DNA from: an uncultured Caryophanales bacterium
GTDB taxonomy: Bacteria > Bacillota_I > Bacilli_A > RF39 > UBA660
DNA: 50,692 nt
Assembly (NCBI GenBank): GCA_948442255.1
Contig: CAOJRT010000008.1
Coordinates: 1-50,692, forward strand
Direction: 5' to 3'
Below, one piece after another: positions 27,837 to 38,093 of the stretch. Below the pieces are notes generated by a model, which worked only from the letters and a program-made list of their open reading frames with translations, did not search any database and was not told the DNA's origin. Made by a program: the position numbers and the translations under genes. Numbering within the stretch: the stretch's first letter is position 1; every line of letters starts with the position of its first letter.

Positions 27837-28952
27837 TTAATTTAAATTGTCGATAATATTTATAATTTCATTCATTTGATTTCTAAATAGGTGAGAATAT
27901 GTGTTTAATGTCTCATCTATTTTTGTATGACCTAAATACTTTGCAACTACATTTATTGTGGCACCGCTATTTATAAGTAGTGATGCACAACTATGTCTAA
28001 AATCGTGAATTCTAATTTGTTTAACACCTGCTAACTTACAATTTTTATTTTTCCTGGTTCTTATCTTACCATTTGTAATAGGTTCAGTATCCCCAAACAC
28101 ATACCAATTATTATTAAATCCATAATGATTATTAGAAATTTTATATAGTTCTTTTAAATCATCTAGTAAAACTTTAGGCACTGGAATATTTCTAACACTT
28201 GATTTTGTTTTAGGAGTGGTAACCATATAAGATTTATCCTCATCTCCTCTAGTTGCCACAACATTTTTATTTACACTTAAATAATTATTTTCAAAATCAA
28301 TATCATTCCAGGTAAGACCACGAAGTTCTCCACGCCTTAATCCACAATAATATAAAGTTTCATACATAGTTTTATATAAAATATCATTTTCTACTGAAAT
28401 AAATTTCTTAAATTCATCATAAGTAAAAAATAACATTTCTTTAGGTATTTCATTAGGATTCGTAAAATTAGTCATTTTATTGTAAGTTGCAGTGAAATTA
28501 AAATTGTACCATTTAGTAGCATAGTTTAATAATTCTTTAAAGAATTTAAATAGATGATTCTTATGATTTGTTGTATAACCATAAGAATTAATTTCTTTCT
28601 TCCATTTTTCAAAGTGTTCTATGTTAAAATCCTTCAATTTAACATTTTCTAGATTTTTAAAGAACTTTTGTCTATCTCTATAAGTCTTTAAAGTAGTAAA
28701 TTTTACTTTATCTTCTTTATAAGCATAGAAGAGAGTATATAAATCCTTAAAAGTCATATTACGATCTTTATCGGCTCGTTCAGTATTCATTGTTAAAAAC
28801 TCCCTTTCGACTTTTAAAGCCTCTGTTTTTGTAAAAAACTTCTTTGACTTATATTTTCTTCTAGTTCCATCTAAATTCTTTACATAGTCATAAAATATCC
28901 ATTTGCGACCATCTTTAGTCCATTCAGATTTATCTAATTGCTTCACTGCCAT
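27837..28952 (-). CDS. int: Tyrosine recombinase / phage-type integrase
   Basis: A 371-residue integrase. Residues about 1-60 resemble the arm-binding AP2-like domain, about 65-165 the SAM-like core-binding domain, and the rest the catalytic domain with Arg206 in CGLRRGELRGLTW, His316-Arg319 in HDFRHS, His342 in YLGHTK and nucleophile Tyr352 in TYSHLF. I chose the ATG at 28952 because GAGGAGG is correctly spaced; an ATG at 28958 is too close to it. The upstream ATPase gene ends 2 bases before, so the two are co-transcribed. The stop lies beside the left arm repeat. Confidence 0.95.
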   Translation of the reverse strand: MAVKQLDKSEWTKDGRKWIFYDYVKNLDGTRRKYKSKKFFTKTEALKVEREFLTMNTERADKDRNMTFKDLYTLFYAYKEDKVKFTTLKTYRDRQKFFKNLENVKLKDFNIEHFEKWKKEINSYGYTTNHKNHLFKFFKELLNYATKWYNFNFTATYNKMTNFTNPNEIPKEMLFFTYDEFKKFISVENDILYKTMYETLYYCGLRRGELRGLTWNDIDFENNYLSVNKNVVATRGDEDKSYMVTTPKTKSSVRNIPVPKVLLDDLKELYKISNNHYGFNNNWYVFGDTEPITNGKIRTRKNKNCKLAGVKQIRIHDFRHSCASLLINSGATINVVAKYLGHTKIDETLNTYSHLFRNQMNEIINIIDNLN

Positions 28953-28954
28953 AA

Positions 28955-29923
28955 TCATTCCTCCTCGAAACTATTGCTTTCTAGGATTGGTTCCTTATAT
29001 ATAGCAGTATAAATTCTATCTGTTGCAGTTCTTCTAGATTTAATAGTGAGTCCTAATTTTTCTAACTTTTCTTTGTTATTTGCAAGTAATTTACCAAATA
29101 CAGGTGGAGTAATATTTAAATTTAACTTACTTACCATCTCTGATATTTTAAAAGTAAATTCTTGTTTGTTAATTGCATATTTTAAGAATTGTATCAAGTT
29201 ATCATTTAATTTATCTTCAGTATCTTCATCAATCGTAAGTATTAGATGATTATCCTTTTTTAAAATATAATCTTTGCTAGGATAATCTCTACTTTCATAC
29301 TTTAAATAGAAGGTAGATTTAATATTTTCATCTTGTTTTAATGCAATCTTACCATCAACACAAGTATCTATTGCTGTACTACCTAAAGATTTACCTTTAC
29401 GATTTAAATGATGAACTAAAATAATTGAAACATTATATTTACCACATAGATTTCGTATTTGTGGAAATATATTTTGACTCATATCTTGGTAGTTGTTTAA
29501 ATCATAGTTATAGCCAAAATTAATTCCATTGAACATATCTATAAATACAAGTTTTCCATTATGTTTTTCAGAAAAGTTCATAATTTCTTTTTCAACCTTT
29601 ATAATACTTAGTTGTGTAGAGTTTTCTTCTGGATAAGTATAAAAGAAATCATCACTATTTAATTTACAATTCATAAGTTCAGTGCGACTTATTGTTTCAC
29701 TAGGATTCATCTCTGTACTTAAATATAGTACAGGTGTTTTGTTCGTCTTTAAATCTAGAAAAGGAATACCATTACAGACTGAATTTGCTATTTGAAGAGC
29801 CATAGCAGATTTACCAACTTTGGCTTCTCCAAGTAAGCAATATAAACCATTTTCTCTGATCATATCTTCAATAATATAATTCATATCGACAATACTACTT
29901 CTTAATTCTTCAATTGTTTTCAT
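28955..29923 (-). CDS. RecA-fold (RepA/AAA_25-like) ATPase
   Basis: A 322-residue protein with Walker A GEAKVGKSAMALQI (near residues 32-45), LYLSTEM, Walker B KLVFIDMFNG and ILVHHLNRKGKSLGSTAID, matching the hexameric RepA/DnaB-like helicase group common in integrative elements and satellites. It may help replicate or stabilise the excised circle. The C-terminal 80 residues look like a winged-helix DNA-binding region. The gene lies between the excisionase-like gene and int in one minus-strand operon. Confidence 0.82.
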   Translation of the reverse strand: MKTIEELRSSIVDMNYIIEDMIRENGLYCLLGEAKVGKSAMALQIANSVCNGIPFLDLKTNKTPVLYLSTEMNPSETISRTELMNCKLNSDDFFYTYPEENSTQLSIIKVEKEIMNFSEKHNGKLVFIDMFNGINFGYNYDLNNYQDMSQNIFPQIRNLCGKYNVSIILVHHLNRKGKSLGSTAIDTCVDGKIALKQDENIKSTFYLKYESRDYPSKDYILKKDNHLILTIDEDTEDKLNDNLIQFLKYAINKQEFTFKISEMVSKLNLNITPPVFGKLLANNKEKLEKLGLTIKSRRTATDRIYTAIYKEPILESNSFEEE

Positions 29924-29934
29924 ATAATTCCTTT

Positions 29935-30171
29935 CTATAAATTTTCTTTCGCCATTTTTTCTAAATAATTAATATTTATTTTTAGTTTATTAACGACTTC
30001 AATCATTGGTAATCTGTTATTAGGAAGAGTGTATCCTTGATTTATTAAATCCTGTTTTATCTCTTTCCTAAGTTTAACTGCATTATTTTTGCCTATTTCA
30101 GCAAGTAACATTAAATCATCAAGATTACACCATTGCTTGGAAATAAGTTTTAATGTTTCTCTAGCATCCAT
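29935..30171 (-). CDS. Small excisionase-like / helix-turn-helix protein
   Basis: A 78-residue protein with a predicted helix-turn-helix (LDDLMLLAEIGKNNAVKLRKEIKQ) and the ending NNRLPMIEVVNKL, reminiscent of small recombination directionality factors or DNA-binding proteins of integrative elements. It is the first gene of the minus-strand int operon, 11 bases from the ATPase gene, preceded by AAAGGAGG. The excisionase role is inferred from size and position. Confidence 0.55.
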   Translation of the reverse strand: MDARETLKLISKQWCNLDDLMLLAEIGKNNAVKLRKEIKQDLINQGYTLPNNRLPMIEVVNKLKININYLEKMAKENL

Positions 30172-30253
30172 ATTAAGTGTTCCTCCTTTCGTTAGACTCT
30201 AGATATAAAAATATCTATGTATATGGATTACCAATAAAGAAAAGAATTATATA

Positions 30254-30270
30254 TGTGAGTTATACTCACA
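30254..30270. promoter_or_regulatory. Palindromic operator 1
   Basis: TGTGAGTTATACTCACA is a perfect GTGAG/CTCAC palindrome just downstream of the minus-strand promoter (-35 at 30300-30305, TTGACT; -10 at 30278-30283, GATAAT; spacer 16). The repressor from 30395 probably binds it to shut off the int operon. Confidence 0.6.
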
Positions 30271-30310
30271 ACAATATATTATCATACAGATTTAATTTAA
30301 GTCAATACAT

Positions 30311-30331
30311 TTTGTGATTAAAACTCACAAA
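30311..30331. promoter_or_regulatory. Palindromic operator 2
   Basis: TTTGTGATTAAAACTCACAAA has the same GTGA/TCAC half-sites as operator 1. It lies between the two divergent promoters, next to the minus-strand -35 and just upstream of the repressor -35. Confidence 0.55.
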
Positions 30332-30334
30332 AAT

Positions 30335-30363
30335 ATTGTTTGATAATCAAAATTGTGTTAAAA
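30335..30363 (+). promoter_or_regulatory. Promoter of the repressor gene
   Basis: TTGTTT followed by a 17-base spacer and TAAAAT, just upstream of the XRE-family gene and beside operator 2. Confidence 0.5.
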
Positions 30364-30394
30364 TGGTAATAGATGAGTAAATGAGGTGTATAAA

Positions 30395-30919
30395 GTGGAA
30401 GATAAAACTTTAGCCAGTGTAGTAAAGAGTGCTAGAGAAAAGGTTGGTATATCGCAAAGAGAACTATCTAGAAGAACAGGAATTGATAACAATACATTAG
30501 CAAAGATAGAAAAAGGTGAAAGAAGGAAACCTAATGCGTTATCTTTAAGAAAACTATCTATGGTACTAGGTATTGATGTAAAAAAATTAATGAAACTATG
30601 TGATTATACCAAGGAAGAAATTGAAATAATTGATAACAAAATTTATACAAATATTGCAATTAAAAATGATGATTTATCAATTACATTGATAGATGAATAC
30701 ATTAAAAATTTCAAATATGATGTCTTAGCTAAAGAAATTTTGTTAGATTTTATAAACGATAAAGATTATAAAAAGACAGAAAAATATGAAAAATTGAAAC
30801 AAACTGAAAAAAATAAAGTAGATAAAGCATTTAAAAATATAGTCAATACCTTTAACGAAGATATAGAAAAAATGGAATATGCTATAGTACATATTGATGA
30901 TAATAAGACTAAAAAGTGA
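30395..30919 (+). CDS. XRE/cI-like repressor of the element
   Basis: A 174-residue protein with an N-terminal helix-turn-helix (VGISQRELSRRTGIDNNTLAKIEKGERR) and an acidic C-terminal dimerisation-like half. I chose GTG 30395, preceded by AGGTG at the right distance, over an in-frame GTG at 30386 that overlaps it. It is transcribed divergently from the int operon across two palindromic operators, the usual lysogeny-switch layout. No ImmA-type protease gene follows. Confidence 0.85.
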   Translation: MEDKTLASVVKSAREKVGISQRELSRRTGIDNNTLAKIEKGERRKPNALSLRKLSMVLGIDVKKLMKLCDYTKEEIEIIDNKIYTNIAIKNDDLSITLIDEYIKNFKYDVLAKEILLDFINDKDYKKTEKYEKLKQTEKNKVDKAFKNIVNTFNEDIEKMEYAIVHIDDNKTKK

Positions 30920-30935
30920 TTTTTTCAGTTAGTAA

Positions 30936-30996
30936 TGACAGTATGACAAATAAATCAGAGTATGGTGGTAGGTATAAAATACTTGTCATGGTGTCA
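30936..30996. repeat. Interrupted inverted repeat upstream of the MazG-like gene
   Basis: TGACAGTATGACAA (30936-30949) and TTGTCATGGTGTCA (30983-30996) are inverted copies with 12 of 14 matches, separated by 33 bases. It could be an operator or a replication or nicking site; sequence alone does not decide. Confidence 0.35.
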
Positions 30997-31023
30997 TTTA
31001 TAAAGAAAGTAAGATGATATTTA

Positions 31024-31371
31024 ATGAAAAAAGAAAACTTAGTTAATGAATTTAATAAAATAAATGCCAATAGTAATTTAAATGAAATTCAAAAATATAT
31101 TACTAAAATGATGCAAGTCAATGGCTTTAACAATACGCCTTTAGAATTATTTTGCTACTTAACTGAAGAGGTTGGAGAATTAGCAAAAGAAATTAGAAAA
31201 ACAGAAAAAAATATGGATATGGACATAAAAAAGAATTATGAATCCTGTTTAAAACATGAAATTGCAGATGTATTTATATATTTACTTGCAATATGTAATT
31301 CATATAATATAGATCTTTTAGAAGCTTTTAAAGATAAAGAAAAGATTAATTTGAATAGAGATTGGAAGTAA
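31024..31371 (+). CDS. MazG-like nucleotide pyrophosphohydrolase
   Basis: A 115-residue all-alpha NTP pyrophosphohydrolase. The metal-binding EEVGELAKEIRK (near residues 49-60) and HEIADVFIYLLAIC (near 80-93) supply the E-x-x-E and E-x-x-D residues of the MazG superfamily, and it ends RDWK as many relatives do. It would hydrolyse (d)NTPs to monophosphates, for sanitation or nucleotide depletion. It overlaps the reading frame before the glycosylase-like gene by a few bases, so the two are probably co-expressed as a nucleotide/DNA-damage pair. Confidence 0.82.
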   Translation: MKKENLVNEFNKINANSNLNEIQKYITKMMQVNGFNNTPLELFCYLTEEVGELAKEIRKTEKNMDMDIKKNYESCLKHEIADVFIYLLAICNSYNIDLLEAFKDKEKINLNRDWK

Positions 31372-31388
31372 AAAAGAGAGTTGATAAT

Positions 31389-32102
31389 ATGGCTAAACAA
31401 AAAACTTTTTCAGATAATGTATTAGAATTTAATGAATGGCTAGCAAATATATCTTTAGAATTATTTGATAATTATGCTATTAGTAATCCATTTAGTGGTA
31501 AAAATAGAGTACAAATAAAAGAGATTACGAATGCTTTTTATAAAAAATATTATAATGATCATAATAAAAGATATTTAATACTTGGGAGTTCCCCAGCAAG
31601 AAAAGGTACAGCAACAACAGGTATTCCATTTGAAGATGCGGGTCATCTTTATAAAGAAACAGGTATTATGATTGATAATTTTTATATAAATCAATCATCT
31701 TCTAATTTTTTGTATGATGTTATGGAACAATATGGTGGTTATGAAAAATTTTATAAGGACTTTTTTATGAGTTTTGTATGTCCACTTGGTATAGTAAATA
31801 TAAATTCAAAAGGAAATGAAGTTAATTCAAATTATTATGAAAATAAAAAATTGGAGAATGCTTTATACAATTTTATTGTTGATTCTTTAAAAAAACAGAT
31901 TGCTTTTGGAATTGAAACATCTGTATGTTATTGTATAGGAAGTGGAGAAAATTTTAAATTTTTAAAAAAAATTAATGAACAATATAAATTTTTTGATAAG
32001 ATTATTGCTTTAGAACATCCAAGATTTATTATGCAATATAATTCAAAAGATAGGAATAAATACTTGGATAAATACATTAATACTTTAAATAATAGAAACT
32101 AA
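31389..32102 (+). CDS. SMUG2-like uracil-DNA-glycosylase-superfamily protein
   Basis: A 237-residue protein resembling the SMUG2 branch of uracil-DNA glycosylases as I remember it: NPFSGKNR, FYKKYYNDHNKRYLILGSSPARKGTATTGIPFED, FVCPLGIVN, CYCIGSGENFKFL and LEHPRFIMQY appear in the expected order. The active-site motif is GSSPA where SMUG enzymes usually have G-(I/M)-N-P-G, so the catalytic Asn appears to be Ser. The motif-2 His (HPRF) is kept. The ATG at 31389 is preferred over TTG 31362. A close paralogue with a frameshift lies at 40486-41200. Confidence 0.72.
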   Translation: MAKQKTFSDNVLEFNEWLANISLELFDNYAISNPFSGKNRVQIKEITNAFYKKYYNDHNKRYLILGSSPARKGTATTGIPFEDAGHLYKETGIMIDNFYINQSSSNFLYDVMEQYGGYEKFYKDFFMSFVCPLGIVNINSKGNEVNSNYYENKKLENALYNFIVDSLKKQIAFGIETSVCYCIGSGENFKFLKKINEQYKFFDKIIALEHPRFIMQYNSKDRNKYLDKYINTLNNRN

Positions 32103-32197
32103 AATAATAAAAATGCAAGAAAAAGTTTCTATAAATAATTAAAATATAGACAAAAACTTATCAAGAAAATTCAAGATGAAAAATATTGAAAAAGCAG

Positions 32198-32279
32198 AGT
32201 AGAATATTTGTGTCTTAGCCAGCACTGCAAATTGACTCCCGCCATTTGCAAAAATATGGGATTTATCCTAAACCCTAAA
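32198..32279 (-). repeat. Structured element, copy 1 (inverted)
   Basis: On the minus strand: TTTAGGG (32273-32279), a GGAT/ATCC mini-stem, then hairpin TGCAAAT/ATTTGCA (32226-32232 with 32244-32250) whose loop holds GCGGGAGT, then CAGTGCTGGCT (32217-32227), then an A/T-rich stretch reaching an ACTCT that can pair with the loop. The inverted partner is at 38089-38167. Loop and tail are conserved while the stem sequence changes and still pairs. The rest of 32103-32305 is AT-rich without a gene. Confidence 0.7.
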
Positions 32280-32305
32280 TAGTATTAAAATATAGGAGGC
32301 AAAAT

Positions 32306-33127
32306 ATGGATTATGAACAATTTATTAAAATGTTATCAAATTTATCTAATACAGAAGAAATTTTAGTCACTCTTTTTAACTATTTTAAAAATAATGTAAG
32401 TTACAATTATGATGAACTTCAAGTAGTAAAATATCAAAGATACGAAAATGAATATTTAAGACAGGTTAGTGACTTAATAACTAAAAACAAAAATGAGAAA
32501 TCTGATAAATTTAAAGAATATTTAATAAAACTTTTAGATGATGCATTCTTAAAAATTGAAGGAAGACCATTATCTGAAAAAAATAAATTAGAATGGTTTA
32601 AAAATTATGGTACTATTATTCATCATGAAGCACAACCAGCAAAAAATGGAATAATAAAAATTCCTGCTAGAGATGCTTATGATGAAATTGTTCACATTGA
32701 ACCAAATAATTATCCACCAATATATTGTAATGGATTATTAACAAATGGTGTATGTGGAGAATATTCAAGGTGGATTAAACAAATATGTGATAGCTTGAAT
32801 ATTCCTTGTTTAAAAGTAAGAGGAAAAGGTACTACAGGCCATGCATGGAATTTGGTATATATTCAAGAAAAAAGTATTTGGGTTAATTTTGATATGACTA
32901 TGGTAAGGTTTTATATTGATGGTTGGTCAAAAGAATATGGTGAACCTGAAAAGTGGATTTTTGCAACTAATAATGAAATGTTTAAATTGCAACCACAAAG
33001 AATTATAGAACAAATATTGGGAGATAATGATACAATATTATTTACTTCAGTAATAAATGCAAATAATCAGGCAGAATTAGATGAATTTCTTAATGAATTA
33101 TATCCTATAGGGAAATTGAAAAAATAA
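32306..33127 (+). CDS. Transglutaminase-like (papain-fold) protein
   Basis: A 273-residue cytosolic protein with a Cys-His-Asp arrangement typical of the transglutaminase-like superfamily: Cys150 in NGVCGEYSRW, His179 in TGHAWNLVYI and Asp196 in VNFDMTM. Such proteins act as peptidases, amidases or cross-linkers. There is no signal peptide. TAGGAGG precedes the ATG. It is the first gene inside the pair of inverted structured elements, followed by the DUF3800 gene after 34 bases. Substrate unknown. Confidence 0.72.
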   Translation: MDYEQFIKMLSNLSNTEEILVTLFNYFKNNVSYNYDELQVVKYQRYENEYLRQVSDLITKNKNEKSDKFKEYLIKLLDDAFLKIEGRPLSEKNKLEWFKNYGTIIHHEAQPAKNGIIKIPARDAYDEIVHIEPNNYPPIYCNGLLTNGVCGEYSRWIKQICDSLNIPCLKVRGKGTTGHAWNLVYIQEKSIWVNFDMTMVRFYIDGWSKEYGEPEKWIFATNNEMFKLQPQRIIEQILGDNDTILFTSVINANNQAELDEFLNELYPIGKLKK

Positions 33128-33161
33128 TATTTAAAATGTTAAAAAGTTAGGAGATGGTAAA

Positions 33162-34007
33162 GTGTCAAAATGGTATGATAAACCCACTAAAATTTTATCA
33201 ATGAAAAAAGATATTGATTATGTTATGTGTATTGATGAAAATGGTAGTAGCAGTAATTTAACCTATGTATTAAAACAAATATCTAATGAAAAAGAAATAT
33301 CAGAAGATGATAAATACTTTACCATTACTGGATGTATCTTTACTAAAGAAGAATATATGAATTCAAAGAGAATAATAAAGTCATTAAAAAATAAGTATTG
33401 GGAAAATGGTATGTTTTATGATAGTAAATTAAAACGAGAAAAGTGCGTATGTTTTCATTCGAGAGATATAAGAAAACATGATAATTGTTTTAATGATAGT
33501 GTTATAAATTATAATGAATTTATGATTGATCTAACAGATACTATGAAGAATATTAAGTGTAAAATCATTTCAATTAGTATAAACCTTTATGAATATTTGA
33601 AAAAAGGATACACTCATAATGTTTATAATGTAGCATTTGATTTTCTATTAGAAAGATATATTTATGCAACTGATAATAATAAAAAAGGTGTAATAATGCT
33701 TGAAGCAAGAGGTAAAGATGAAGATAATGAATTGCTAGAACACATTAGTAAAGTTATCAATAAAACGGGAACAAAGAAAATTAGTTCAAAGGAACCAAAA
33801 TCTAAAATAGATGGAGTATATTTTAATCCTAAATGGAATGAAGAATATAGTTCAACTTATGTTGGACTTGAAATAACAGATTTATTCTCATATCCAATTC
33901 ATAAATATGTTAAAAGAAATACCAAAGATAAGGCATTTTTAACATTTGAAGATAAAATAGTTGGTTATCCAAATTATAAGAATAAAGGAATAAAAACATT
34001 CCCTTAA
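33162..34007 (+). CDS. DUF3800-family protein
   Basis: A 281-residue protein with the DUF3800 layout: an N-terminal strand ending in Asp25-Glu26 (VMCIDENGSS), an ITGCIFTKEE strand, a central His-rich HSRDIRKHD, VIMLEARG, and C-terminal VGLEITDLFSY with Asp240. The spaced acidic residues suggest an RNase H-like metal-dependent nuclease fold, which is an inference. GTG 33162 follows AGGAG. A strong minus-strand small RNA converges on its 3' end. DUF3800 genes are known for nearby structured RNA motifs. Confidence 0.75.
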   Translation: MSKWYDKPTKILSMKKDIDYVMCIDENGSSSNLTYVLKQISNEKEISEDDKYFTITGCIFTKEEYMNSKRIIKSLKNKYWENGMFYDSKLKREKCVCFHSRDIRKHDNCFNDSVINYNEFMIDLTDTMKNIKCKIISISINLYEYLKKGYTHNVYNVAFDFLLERYIYATDNNKKGVIMLEARGKDEDNELLEHISKVINKTGTKKISSKEPKSKIDGVYFNPKWNEEYSSTYVGLEITDLFSYPIHKYVKRNTKDKAFLTFEDKIVGYPNYKNKGIKTFP

Positions 34008-34009
34008 AA

Positions 34010-34087
34010 CAAAAAATAAGAACTGGATAAACCAGTTCTTACCGTCCGCGATACCACGAACCCCAAGCAAACTTAATTGCTTTTGAC
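34010..34087 (-). ncRNA. Predicted small RNA converging on the DUF3800 gene
   Basis: On the minus strand TTGACA (34117-34122), a 17-base spacer and TATATT (34094-34099) form a near-consensus promoter with a start near 34087. The roughly 78-base RNA would fold into AAGCAA/TTGCTT (34065-34082), a middle hairpin GTTCGTG-GTAT-CGCGGAC (34045-34062, two G-U pairs), and a 9-bp terminator AAGAACTGG/CCAGTTCTT (34018-34040) followed by ATTTTTTG. The GC-rich middle stands out from its AT-rich surroundings. It may belong to the DUF3800-associated RNA motifs, or be an antisense regulator. No open frame. Confidence 0.7.
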
Positions 34088-34162
34088 ATACTTAATATAG
34101 CAAATAAATGATTATTTGTCAATAACTATGTCTTTAATAGTATATATAAAAATTGTCTGAAA

Positions 34163-34180
34163 TATGCAGATTATTGCATA
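34163..34180. promoter_or_regulatory. Inverted repeat in the STAND-gene leader
   Basis: TATGCA and TGCATA are separated by 6 bases, just upstream of the AGGAGGTG ribosome site (34193-34200). It may be an operator or a small leader hairpin. Confidence 0.35.
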
Positions 34181-34204
34181 AAGTTATAGATTAGGAGGTG
34201 CGTT

Positions 34205-36259
34205 TTGAAAAATATTATTTTTTTATTAGAACAACAAGTTGTTGAAAAACATCAAAAAAATATATTTAATATTATTATCGAAAAATTAAAAGAAATTAAT
34301 GAATATTATGAACTTGTTAATTTATTATGGATAGGTTTAGGGGTTATTATAATTGTAATTGTATTATCTTTTAATAAACGAAGAGTAAATAAAAAAAGTA
34401 AGGTTGAGTATAAAAAAAATGAAAATAATGGAAAATTTATAAATGAATTATATATTGAACTTGGTAATTGTAACGAAAAATTAAGATATATGTATTTTAA
34501 TAAAAAATGGAAATATAGAATAAAAAAAGAATTTCAAATAATTTTGAAAACAAATATAGGTAAAATGCTATGTAAAAAGTGTCATATAAAGTTTTACAAC
34601 TATATAACATTTAAAGGTTTATATAAATCAATAAAAAAATGCAGTAATTATCTAGAAAATTGTAGAACCAGTGATGCGGAAGAATGTATAAATCGAAATT
34701 ATGAATTTTATTTAGAGATGAATAGTTATTATGTAAAATATGATATTTTAAGATTATTGGATAATGTAGAAATGATTAATACTAATATATGTTTTCTTTT
34801 AGGAAAAGCAGGTAGTGGTAAAACCAATCTTTTGACAAATTTTGCAAAAAAATTAATCTGCAATTTCAAAGCACAATGTATTTATATTGATGCAAAAGAT
34901 ATTATCGATAATAATGTAGAAACTAAAGTATTATCATATTTTCATACTAACTATTTAATTAATGAAGATAAAAATATATTGATTTCAATACTGTTTTTAT
35001 TAAAACGACTGTTTAAACAAAAGATTGTGATTATTATAGAAGCAATTAATGAAAATTCTAATACTGAGTTTTATAAAAATTTAAGTAGATTTTTAAATAA
35101 ATATCATCAATATCATAATATTAAGATTATTATTTCTAGCAGAACTGAATTTTATAATTTAAGATTTAAAGAAATATTTGATGAATATTTAGATAAAAAT
35201 GTACAATATAAAATTATATCTATTGAAAATTCTAGAATAAGCGATGTTGTATATGAAAAAATGTATTTAAAATATAAAAAATATTTCAATTTTAATGGTG
35301 CAGTTACCAATTCAGTAAAAAGAACATTATTTGAATCTCCTATTTTTATGAGAATATTTTTTGAGTGTTACGAAAATAGTAAAGAGAGCATCAGTGATAT
35401 AAATAAATCTAAAATATTTAGTGAATACATAGATAGGCTATCAAAAAAATATATAGATTTAAGGAAAGTATTAGAAGAAATAATTGATACAATGTTAGAA
35501 GATAAAAAATTTGATAGTGTTAATATTGATAGATTAAATATTTCTATCGATAAAATACAAAATCTTATAAGTGAAAATTTTATATTAACACATTCAATAG
35601 TGGAGAATGAAGGAAAAGTCAACGAATGCAAATCTGAAATTATTTCAATTACATATGATGAGATAAGAGATTATTTGATTACTAATAGTATTATTAAAAA
35701 ATATAAAGATAAAAAAATTAATATAACGAATTTTATTGATGAAATGATTAATCAAAGATATCCAATATTAGAAGGTGTTTTGAAAAGAATATATGCATAT
35801 TTTAAACAAGATGACAATAGAACTTGTAATTACATTTTGAATAAAGAATTATTTGAAAATCATAGTTATGGTAATAAAGATATTTATAACAATGTTCACT
35901 TAGATTTTATATTTTCTACAAGACAAGATTTAAATAAAGATGAGAAAAAATATTTATCTAATTTAAAATATATAACACCTAATGATTTAGCTAAAATGAC
36001 TTGGGATTGTACATACAATTTAGTTTATGGGCTATTGCCTGGAATAGAATTTATACAAAACGAAATGTTAAAATTTATTAGAAAAGAAGATACTATATTT
36101 GATTTTTCTAAAATTTCATTTGACTATTATAGATTTCTTATTAGCCAATTAGAAGAGCGTAATGATGATAAAATTGGTAAATATATTGTGACATTAAAGA
36201 ATTTATTAAAATATTTGGAGATGAATTATTATGAAGAAGATTCAAAAAACTATTATTAA
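34205..36259 (+). CDS. Membrane-anchored STAND/NACHT-like NTPase
   Basis: A 684-residue protein starting at TTG, chosen because the strong AGGAGGTG (34193-34200) is correctly spaced. One membrane span (about residues 38-56) is followed by a charged 130-residue linker. An NTPase core has Walker A GKAGSGKT (200-207), a Walker B-like KIVIIIEAINE (272-283) and sensor-1 IKIIISSRTEF (about 305-316). The EAINE variant and following helical region resemble NACHT-type STAND NTPases, several of which are antiphage sensors. No standard nuclease or TIR effector is recognised, and the C-terminal 300 residues are an unassigned helical sensor. Its end overlaps the next gene by 29 bases. Confidence 0.68.
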   Translation: MKNIIFLLEQQVVEKHQKNIFNIIIEKLKEINEYYELVNLLWIGLGVIIIVIVLSFNKRRVNKKSKVEYKKNENNGKFINELYIELGNCNEKLRYMYFNKKWKYRIKKEFQIILKTNIGKMLCKKCHIKFYNYITFKGLYKSIKKCSNYLENCRTSDAEECINRNYEFYLEMNSYYVKYDILRLLDNVEMINTNICFLLGKAGSGKTNLLTNFAKKLICNFKAQCIYIDAKDIIDNNVETKVLSYFHTNYLINEDKNILISILFLLKRLFKQKIVIIIEAINENSNTEFYKNLSRFLNKYHQYHNIKIIISSRTEFYNLRFKEIFDEYLDKNVQYKIISIENSRISDVVYEKMYLKYKKYFNFNGAVTNSVKRTLFESPIFMRIFFECYENSKESISDINKSKIFSEYIDRLSKKYIDLRKVLEEIIDTMLEDKKFDSVNIDRLNISIDKIQNLISENFILTHSIVENEGKVNECKSEIISITYDEIRDYLITNSIIKKYKDKKINITNFIDEMINQRYPILEGVLKRIYAYFKQDDNRTCNYILNKELFENHSYGNKDIYNNVHLDFIFSTRQDLNKDEKKYLSNLKYITPNDLAKMTWDCTYNLVYGLLPGIEFIQNEMLKFIRKEDTIFDFSKISFDYYRFLISQLEERNDDKIGKYIVTLKNLLKYLEMNYYEEDSKNYY

Positions 36260-36632
36260 ATTAGATGATAAGATATTTTTTATAAAAAATGATGATATGA
36301 GAAAAAAGTCTTTTTTGAAGTTGTTTAATGTTAAGAATAAGTCTTATCTATATCAATTATATGGTAGATTGTATGATTATATAATTGGGGATGGAATCAA
36401 CTTATATGAAGAGTTTGAAAAATATTATAGTAAAGAATATTCTAGTTTTGAAATATTTTTATCAGAACATTATAATATACCAGATGAATTAGTAGAAAAA
36501 TTTAATAATACAAAAAGTTATTATAAATATAAAGATATTGGAAATGAACAACCACTATATAATTTATTGCATGATGAAGAAGTTCATAATATTGTTAGTG
36601 AGTTTATGGGAGGTTATGTGTATGAAAATTAG
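36231..36632 (+). CDS. Orphan 133-residue protein
   Basis: I do not recognise this family. The protein is rich in Lys, Tyr, Asp and Glu, has no membrane span or signal peptide, and is predicted mostly helical (SYLYQLYGRLYDYIIGDG; FEIFLSEHYNIPDELVEKF). It overlaps the STAND NTPase gene by 29 bases and the next gene by 11 bases, so translation of the three is probably coupled. It may be a partner or adaptor of its neighbours. Confidence 0.7.
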   Translation: MKKIQKTIIKLDDKIFFIKNDDMRKKSFLKLFNVKNKSYLYQLYGRLYDYIIGDGINLYEEFEKYYSKEYSSFEIFLSEHYNIPDELVEKFNNTKSYYKYKDIGNEQPLYNLLHDEEVHNIVSEFMGGYVYEN

Positions 36633-37023
36633 AGATGGATTTGTTACAAATAGTTCATCTACAAGCTACATTATAATTTCAAAAAAGGAGTTAACAGGTG
36701 AGTATTTAGCACAAAAATTGGGTGTAACAGAAAAAACACTTAATTATTATGATATAGTTTCCGTATGTAAAAATATGGTAAATGATGGCAAAGATGGATT
36801 TTATCATCATAATTATCAGGAATCATTAAGTTATAGTTTGATAAATGAATTATTCGGAAAAGAGACTGCAAATAAGTATAAGAAAGCTTTAAAGAAGGGG
36901 TATGAGATTTACTGCGGTCGAATTTCAAGTGATGAAACTGATTATGAAATTACAATGTGTTTAGATTACATCAAATATAGTGATTCAGAAGTTTACATAG
37001 ATGCAACTGATAATGGATGGTAG
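36622..37023 (+). CDS. Small protein with N-terminal GFVTNSSSTSY motif
   Basis: A 133-residue protein starting KIRDGFVTNSSSTSYIIISK. This N-terminus resembles a recurring K-I-R-x-G-F-V-S-N-S-S-S-S-S-F motif that I recall heading otherwise unrelated hypothetical proteins; its role is unknown to me. ATG 36622 has GGGAGG (36608-36613) 8 bases upstream and makes the motif N-terminal. The remainder is acidic and soluble. The radical-SAM gene starts 2 bases after its stop, so it is a plausible substrate or partner, with the Ser/Asn-rich head as the candidate modified segment. That is inference. Confidence 0.7.
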   Translation: MKIRDGFVTNSSSTSYIIISKKELTGEYLAQKLGVTEKTLNYYDIVSVCKNMVNDGKDGFYHHNYQESLSYSLINELFGKETANKYKKALKKGYEIYCGRISSDETDYEITMCLDYIKYSDSEVYIDATDNGW

Positions 37024-37025
37024 TT

Positions 37026-38093
37026 ATGAAAGTATATAAAGATAAATTATTTAATTTTACTGAGATTTTTAATGAAAAAAATGGGATGCTTATTCGTACA
37101 AATATTTTAGATGCAAATGGGAATGAGACTTCAGAAGAACCATATATGAGAAGTTTTCCAGAATTAATTGATATTGGAATCATGGGAAAGTGTCATGTCA
37201 ATCAAAAATATTGCAAAAATTTTGGGGTAGATTGTTATCAAGCAAATAATGTTCATGAAGATATGGACTTTGAAGATTATAAGAAAATAGTTGACCAATG
37301 TAAATACAAAACATTTCAAGTTGCCTTAGGTGGCAGAGGTGACCCAAACAAACATAAAGATTTTGGTAAGATATTAAAGTATACTTATGATAATGGAATT
37401 ATTCCTAATCTAACTACTACGGGAATGTTATTAAGCGATTCAGAAATTAAATTAATGAAAAAGTATTGTGGAGCAGTAGCAGTATCATTATATAGTAAAA
37501 TAATTACTAAAGATGGTGTGAATGAAGAGTCTAATGTTCAAAGTATAGAGGCTATTAATAAATTGATATCTAATGATATTATTACAAATATTCATTATGT
37601 AATTTCAAAAGATACAATAGATGACATAATTTTTAGACTAGAGAATAATTTATTTCCAAATGGGATAAATGCAATCATTTTTTTATTATACAAGCCAGTG
37701 GGATTAGCAAATGTAGATAAAATGATAAATATAAATGATAATAAGTTTACGAAGTTTTTGAATATTATAAATGATAAAAAATATAATTTTAAAATAGGCT
37801 TTGATACTTGCTTCTCTCCTATAATAATTTCAAAATTAGAAAATGTTAATAAAAATTCTATTGATTTTTGCGAAGCAGCACGCTTCTCTTGTTATATTTC
37901 CCCGGATATGATAATGTATCCTTGCTCCTTTATTCAAAATTCAAGTTTTGGAATTAGTTTAAAAGATAGTAGTATTGAACAAGCATGGCTGTCCACGAAA
38001 TTTAAAAATTTTAAGGATAACAATAAGTATAACTTTGAAGGAAGTTGCCCTTGCGGACTGAATACTTTTGCATACAATAAAAGCAAAGTTTAG
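37026..38093 (+). CDS. Radical-SAM/SPASM-like protein with unusual cysteine spacing
   Basis: A 355-residue protein. IMGKCHVNQKYCKNFGVDCYQ gives Cys56-x6-Cys63-x6-Cys70, not the canonical CxxxCxxC, in the place where radical-SAM enzymes bind their SAM cluster. It is followed by VALGGRGDP (the GG SAM motif, residues 99-107) and a TIM-barrel-like body with TTTGMLL and VAVSLYS. The C-terminus is SPASM/twitch-like: FCEAARFSCYISPDMIMYPCSF (Cys282, Cys289, Cys300) and SCPCGLN (Cys341, Cys343). Such enzymes modify peptides or mature proteins. ATG 37026 gives a 2-base gap from the previous gene. Confidence 0.75.
   Translation: MKVYKDKLFNFTEIFNEKNGMLIRTNILDANGNETSEEPYMRSFPELIDIGIMGKCHVNQKYCKNFGVDCYQANNVHEDMDFEDYKKIVDQCKYKTFQVALGGRGDPNKHKDFGKILKYTYDNGIIPNLTTTGMLLSDSEIKLMKKYCGAVAVSLYSKIITKDGVNEESNVQSIEAINKLISNDIITNIHYVISKDTIDDIIFRLENNLFPNGINAIIFLLYKPVGLANVDKMININDNKFTKFLNIINDKKYNFKIGFDTCFSPIIISKLENVNKNSIDFCEAARFSCYISPDMIMYPCSFIQNSSFGISLKDSSIEQAWLSTKFKNFKDNNKYNFEGSCPCGLNTFAYNKSKV

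Follow-up and report, generated by a model that had tools for sequence, protein, structure and literature searches.

The closest described counterparts of the locus reported here pair a protein with a structured RNA. In a Clostridioides difficile prophage, AbiF (Abi_2) is accompanied by a separate RNA, RCd22, which neutralises it by direct binding both in cis and in trans (PMC12373285). Type III toxin-antitoxin systems (ToxIN, CptIN, TenpIN) are defined by a tandem-repeat antitoxin RNA lying upstream of the toxin gene, with a terminator between the two and one promoter (PMC5086642). DUF3800 proteins have been described as RNase H folds in which the catalytic residues are rearranged (PMC10910872), and some Cas12a2/V-A2 and VI-F loci carry them as accessory parts (PMC10910872, PMC12669027). 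Structured small RNAs are also found beside DUF3800 genes, an example being DUF3800-I (Rfam RF02969).

The DNA analysed (the window) is a stretch of 50,692 nucleotides from an uncultured Caryophanales bacterium. It contains a DUF3800 gene and, converging on it from the other strand, a small RNA with its own transcription signals. The features of the locus are as follows:

33144 to 34167, no strand: unit of about 1.0 kb (RBS, gene, RNA and promoter, plus a further 45 bp); borders from blastn at about 25 loci and from empty sites in congeners
33162 to 34007, plus strand: DUF3800 gene, GTG start, 846 bp, 281 aa; product a candidate RNase H-like nuclease
34010 to 34087, minus strand: small structured RNA, approximately 78 nt long and converging on the DUF3800 gene; based on fold, covariance model and an alignment of 51 sequences
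34015 to 34043, minus strand: intrinsic terminator hairpin and U tail, immediately beyond the DUF3800 stop codon
34044 to 34061, minus strand: RNA hairpin 2, within the conserved GGGGUUCGUG-GUAU-CGCGGACGGU core; 99.1% of cells paired
34065 to 34082, minus strand: RNA hairpin 1 (AAGCAA/TTGCTT); pairing retained, sequence variable
34083 to 34122, no strand: inverted repeat TTGACA...TGTCAA from the -35 box to the RNA start, read from the sequence; possible operator
34094 to 34122, minus strand: RNA promoter, TTGACA-17-TATATT with extended -10; place and 17/18 spacing kept in nearly all of 46 RNA loci

A stretch of 80 nt of the minus strand folds at -30.7 kcal/mol (z = -6.5), a value equalled by none of 200 shuffled sequences, and the RNA starts 5-6 nt ahead of hairpin 1. 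Its terminator (34043 to 34015) is the sole one in the 6 kb between 31 and 37 kb, where shuffled sequence gives a mean of 0.5. The promoter scores 11/12 and is one of the two best matches in the same interval; of these two, it alone has the extended -10 TG. Promoter-like matches total 71 against 61 expected; such a match is weak evidence on its own, and the promoter is credible because its place and spacing are kept beside relatives of the RNA. The first-pass annotation had proposed an RNA of about 78 bases, from about 34087 to 34010 and ending at the DUF3800 stop codon, with both transcription signals legible. These coordinates were right, as fold, promoter and terminator indicate, and both signals are conserved beside relatives. 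The three consecutive hairpins that it described are more correctly two hairpins followed by the terminator hairpin, the stem of which has 10-12 pairs and not 9 bp. The dyad across the promoter is possibly an operator; in one locus (L034) both of its arms are altered jointly (TTGGCA...TGCCAA). A conserved AT-rich stretch ending in GCATAT (34123-34167) lies beyond this inverted repeat.

The DUF3800 protein matches Pfam PF12686 (DUF3800) with 30.8 bits (gathering cut-off: 21; E-value: 5.5e-7). This was the only domain found in the Pfam search, which detected no ToxN/CptN/TenpN-type toxin and no TnpB/IscB, and no PADLOC model matched the protein. In an alignment of 20 relatives the invariant acidic residues are Asp25, Glu26, Glu181 and Asp240. 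An AlphaFold2 model based on 20 relatives has a pLDDT of 86.9. With this model, Foldseek found nothing at an E-value below 0.001, the best matches being RNase HII/HIII (E-values: 0.006-0.05). When the model was compared with the PDB using VIA-align, type-2 RNases H headed the ranking at Z 8-10.3 (top match 1eke: Z 10.3, rmsd 3.5 A over 163 residues, approximately 10% sequence identity), and Argonaute PIWI domains, EndoV and UvrC came below them at Z 6-8; VIA-align and Foldseek rows ranked under the RNase H group were taken as uninformative. By register (model residue 19 corresponding approximately to chain residue 1), Asp25-Glu26 match the Asp-Glu of the first strand of RNase HII, while Glu181 and Asp240 were not superposed. 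As modelled, the protein resembles a type-2 RNase H-like fold. It shares with RNase HII/HIII the predicted fold and the adjacent Asp-Glu at an equivalent place in the first strand, but the low identity and the rmsd set it apart from them. The model and the acidic residues agree with the published statement on DUF3800 (PMC10910872). A nuclease-like fold with Asp25, Glu26 and Asp240 had been suggested from the sequence; the RNase H-like model and the invariance of all three residues are in its favour, although that set missed the invariant Glu181.

A scan of GTDB contigs yielded 34 loci encoding DUF3800 relatives, and the RNA lies convergently 3' of the gene wherever that region is readable (L017 is broken off before it). 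At 61-64% protein identity the RNA sequence has changed and the hairpins are retained. An order-wide search at the protein level, in which 27 of 288 genomes had matches, brought in relatives at 36-57% identity; promoter, two hairpins and terminator are all present in those at 47-57%, and in this search the RNA adjoins the DUF3800 gene in 14 of 14 uninterrupted (complete) relatives of at least 47% identity. A more divergent version was recognised by eye at 36% identity (L055), and no RNA was recognisable at approximately 30% (L058). Weak matches to the RNA model are found in the same place beside DUF3800 genes of a phage (34% identity; E-value: 3e-4) and of a viral contig (50% identity; E-value: 0.0015). 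In a Brevibacillus plasmid (38% identity), which the RNA model does not reach, a similar pair of hairpin and terminator was recognised by eye alone.

A covariance model built from 20 RNAs was used to gather 51. Hits scoring about 24-34 bits were left out of the class, and a class-wide hit at 31.6 bits (G481), which has neither a recognisable core nor a DUF3800 gene, was dropped. Among the 51 RNAs, standard pairs fill 93.2% of pair cells, compared with 79.2% after shuffling and no more than 51.9% after sliding. Changes on both sides affect 20 of 23 base pairs (12.8 after shuffling, no more than 12 after sliding), and there are 132 double-change cells (shuffled: 33.2). These statistics are biased towards the tested structure because the alignment was fitted to it. 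Helix 2 and the terminator covary already in unfitted MAFFT alignments, and all ten pairs of helix 3 (the terminator) have changed on both sides. In helix 2, U-G pairs occupy two positions (in 35 and 37 sequences); because the plus strand would have A-C mismatches there, the minus strand is the functional RNA. Conservation of the hairpins beside other DUF3800 genes, which the first-pass annotation had set as a check, is thus found with the new covariance model, and the pattern of changes indicates that the RNA fold is under selection. The conserved core (GGGGUWCG..GUAU..CGGU) looks more like a protein-binding site than an antisense sequence. It is very unlikely that the RNA merely controls expression of the gene, either as an antisense to read-through mRNA or through convergent transcription. 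Such a role would suit the convergent layout, in which every close relative has the RNA terminating at the stop codon of the gene, and the promoter dyad could be its operator; however, antisense action needs no conserved fold, and the compensatory changes and U-G pairs point to selection on precisely that.

An RNA associated with DUF3800, either a member of a published family or a new variant, had been anticipated, and the published models were run in their Rfam versions. No DUF3800 RNA family was found in the window or related loci by cmscan with all 4227 Rfam 15 families at gathering score, in 251 bases at E-values up to 10, or in the phage and plasmid loci. The RF02969 (DUF3800-I) model had no match in the window, in 13 related loci (gathering score) or in G000, and RF02968 (DUF3800-IX) was found in none of 245 Bacillota genomes and in none of the control genomes. 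RF02970, tried as a further DUF3800 RNA family, proved to be another family. A 2017 list of 224 candidate RNA motifs reportedly covers the DUF3800 RNA motifs. Like the present RNA, DUF3800-I is a structured small RNA beside a DUF3800 gene, has a terminator at its end and occurs in multi-copy orphan arrays. Unlike it, DUF3800-I spans 115 positions and lies directly upstream on the strand of the gene (six loci read), whereas the present RNA is downstream and convergent; the two match in neither sequence nor structure. Because no Rfam model matched and DUF3800-I is larger, upstream and on the same strand, the RNA is, as far as Rfam shows, a new DUF3800-associated class and not a published member, the comparison of layout covering DUF3800-I and that with the other families resting on their Rfam models. 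Five tandem DUF3800-I hits occur within approximately 0.9 kb of a small genome (L175, G685), with no adjoining DUF3800 gene recognised, and genome G005 has three DUF3800-I hits in addition to the present RNA.

Gene and RNA share the borders of a compact block. In about 25 loci, blastn showed homology from approximately 33144 or 33163 to 34167 between unrelated flanks, with borders that differ between clades. In one species of genus g6 the unit separates two genes that several congeners have some tens of bases apart, and two further species carry it at other places; in genus g30, 38 bases in a congener correspond to 1.1 kb in L014. Insertion between genes is visible at these empty sites, the exact junction being masked by surrounding divergence. 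Neither terminal inverted repeats nor a target duplication of the unit were found, and the order-wide search gave one copy per genome as a rule. Gene and RNA travel together as a single unit among gut bacteria and phages. Internally deleted units (L034, L061 and L152) keep the first and last DUF3800 codons, the RNA and the promoter. These derivatives, the palindrome over the promoter, the sharp borders, the empty sites and the single copies whose location differs among three congeneric species would all be expected if the RNA and its flank served a small mobile element as its functional end, to be recognised in transposition by the DUF3800 protein or another enzyme, with gene-less RNAs arising by internal deletion. 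This explanation is nevertheless quite improbable, given the usual single copy per genome, the clade-dependent borders, the lack of terminal inverted repeats or target duplication and the persistence of orphan RNAs in the lepA-ligA interval of two congeneric genomes. The 3' end of recG has the unit or its RNA nearby in several genera (L005, L011, L015, L032, L033, L025 and L143) and may be an insertion hot spot. Positions 30000-37500 of the window are 99.9% identical over 7.5 kb to positions 1839-9339 of L001, from a genome assigned to another genus (G250), which reflects either recent transfer or a mis-binned contig.

A search of 385 genomes for the RNA gave 40 strong hits (at least 43 bits). 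Seventeen are beside an uninterrupted DUF3800 gene and two beside a gene with an in-frame stop; nine adjoin remnants, eight have no trace of a gene and four are at contig ends or unclear. The RNA is present and the protein absent in genomes that include G332 (three copies), G046, G201, G055, G340 and G116, these being approximately 90-94% complete, so that single missed genes are possible. Mean pairing in orphan RNAs is 91% (compared with 94%) and the promoter is usually kept; this retention of fold and promoter where no gene is left to regulate also argues against a role confined to expression control. G332 and G046, of the same genus, both retain an orphan in the interval from lepA to ligA. 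An ORF6N-domain gene takes the place of DUF3800 opposite the RNA in L150 and L155: the two are convergent, the stop codon of the gene overlaps the RNA end, and the partner gene has apparently been swapped. A phage in G116 carries an orphan RNA (fold z = -5.5) flanked by the genes for an RNA ligase and the terminase, RtcB being encoded 7 kb upstream; this copy lacks the usual promoter and comes from one contig of a metagenome bin. An exact DNA pattern of this phage variant found nothing in IMG/VR. As a phage-borne RNA without its protein, it is like the phage mimic of ToxI (PMC3475682). Neither this phage copy nor the orphan RNAs and the mobility of the unit had been noted in the first-pass annotation. 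By itself, the excess of RNAs without protein is weak evidence for an antitoxin role, because decay is more likely to strike an 846-bp gene than an 80-nt RNA.

The gene that follows the unit in the window encodes an Avs2-like STAND NTPase (34205-36259; PADLOC E-value: 3e-16), and a viperin-like radical SAM protein is encoded downstream of it (37017-38093; pVip E-value: 3e-7), both on the basis of weak matches. Integrase and AAA_25 genes (28164-29923) and MazG and UDG-like genes lie upstream. The region looks like the defence cargo of an integrative element. Other copies of the unit adjoin PtuA-like, type IIG restriction and PDC-S06 genes, lie between hsdS and hsdR (type I restriction) or are found beside a prophage integrase. 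Because many copies are instead flanked by housekeeping genes, the link to defence drawn from neighbours is suggestive only. DUF3800 genes at approximately 35% identity, without such an RNA, occur on Lactobacillaceae plasmids (L187 and L188), where a PemK/MazF-type gene follows, and in a phage (L185), where a hypothetical gene occupies that position.

The likeliest reading of the pair, to which a probability of about 0.45 is given, is a nuclease inhibited by its RNA, working like AbiF/RCd22 or a type III toxin-antitoxin system. What the pair has in common with AbiF/RCd22 is a protein carried on a prophage and partnered by a separate structured RNA (PMC12373285). AbiF is, however, related to ancestral Cas13 and not to RNase H or DUF3800, its RNA is different, and neutralisation was shown for that pair whereas the present one is known from sequence and models. 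With type III systems the pair would share its logic, that of an RNA-held nuclease and phage-encoded RNA mimics (PMC3475682). It differs from them in that its RNA is single, has no tandem repeats, is convergent and has its own promoter, and its protein is not ToxN-like; type III membership is ruled out by this layout and protein.

An alternative is that the RNA is a needed cofactor, a scaffold or guide with which the protein is active, as OMEGA RNAs are with TnpB/IscB. This is unlikely. The RNase H-like fold, with Argonaute PIWI domains among the matches, the fixed one-to-one link of gene and RNA, the compact mobile unit and the accessory DUF3800 proteins of some Cas12a2/V-A2 and VI-F loci (PMC10910872, PMC12669027) would fit it. 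With a terminator at the end and a start 5-6 nt before hairpin 1, however, the RNA has no room for a variable guide, it is nearly invariant where a guide should vary, and orphan RNAs in genomes lacking the protein would be unexpected. An OMEGA system as such was rejected, there being no TnpB/IscB domain in Pfam and no variable guide segment in the RNA.

The proposed model of an RNA-neutralised nuclease runs as follows. The DUF3800 protein and its separately transcribed RNA would form a two-part mobile module. The RNA would bind the protein and keep the nuclease in check, much as AbiF and ToxN are restrained by their RNA antitoxins, and the nuclease would act only upon loss or titration of the RNA, for example during phage infection. 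A neutralising RNA is suggested because the RNA has a conserved core and a fixed partner, the partner has an RNase H-like model, and orphan RNAs and a phage copy exist; from these we infer binding, inhibition, nuclease activity, toxicity and an anti-phage role of the pair. A more specific version is more doubtful, namely that the pair is a previously undescribed RNA-protein toxin-antitoxin or anti-phage module with an RNase H-like effector, whose orphan RNAs are kept by phages and hosts as antidotes.

The DUF3800 family is widespread, its function is unknown, and both RNAs and CRISPR effectors have been linked with it by several groups. The present pair is compact and bounded, with a legible promoter, terminator, core and acidic residues, which makes the effect of an RNA on a DUF3800 protein directly testable. 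The orphan and phage-borne RNAs give this a specific prediction, that the RNA would protect.
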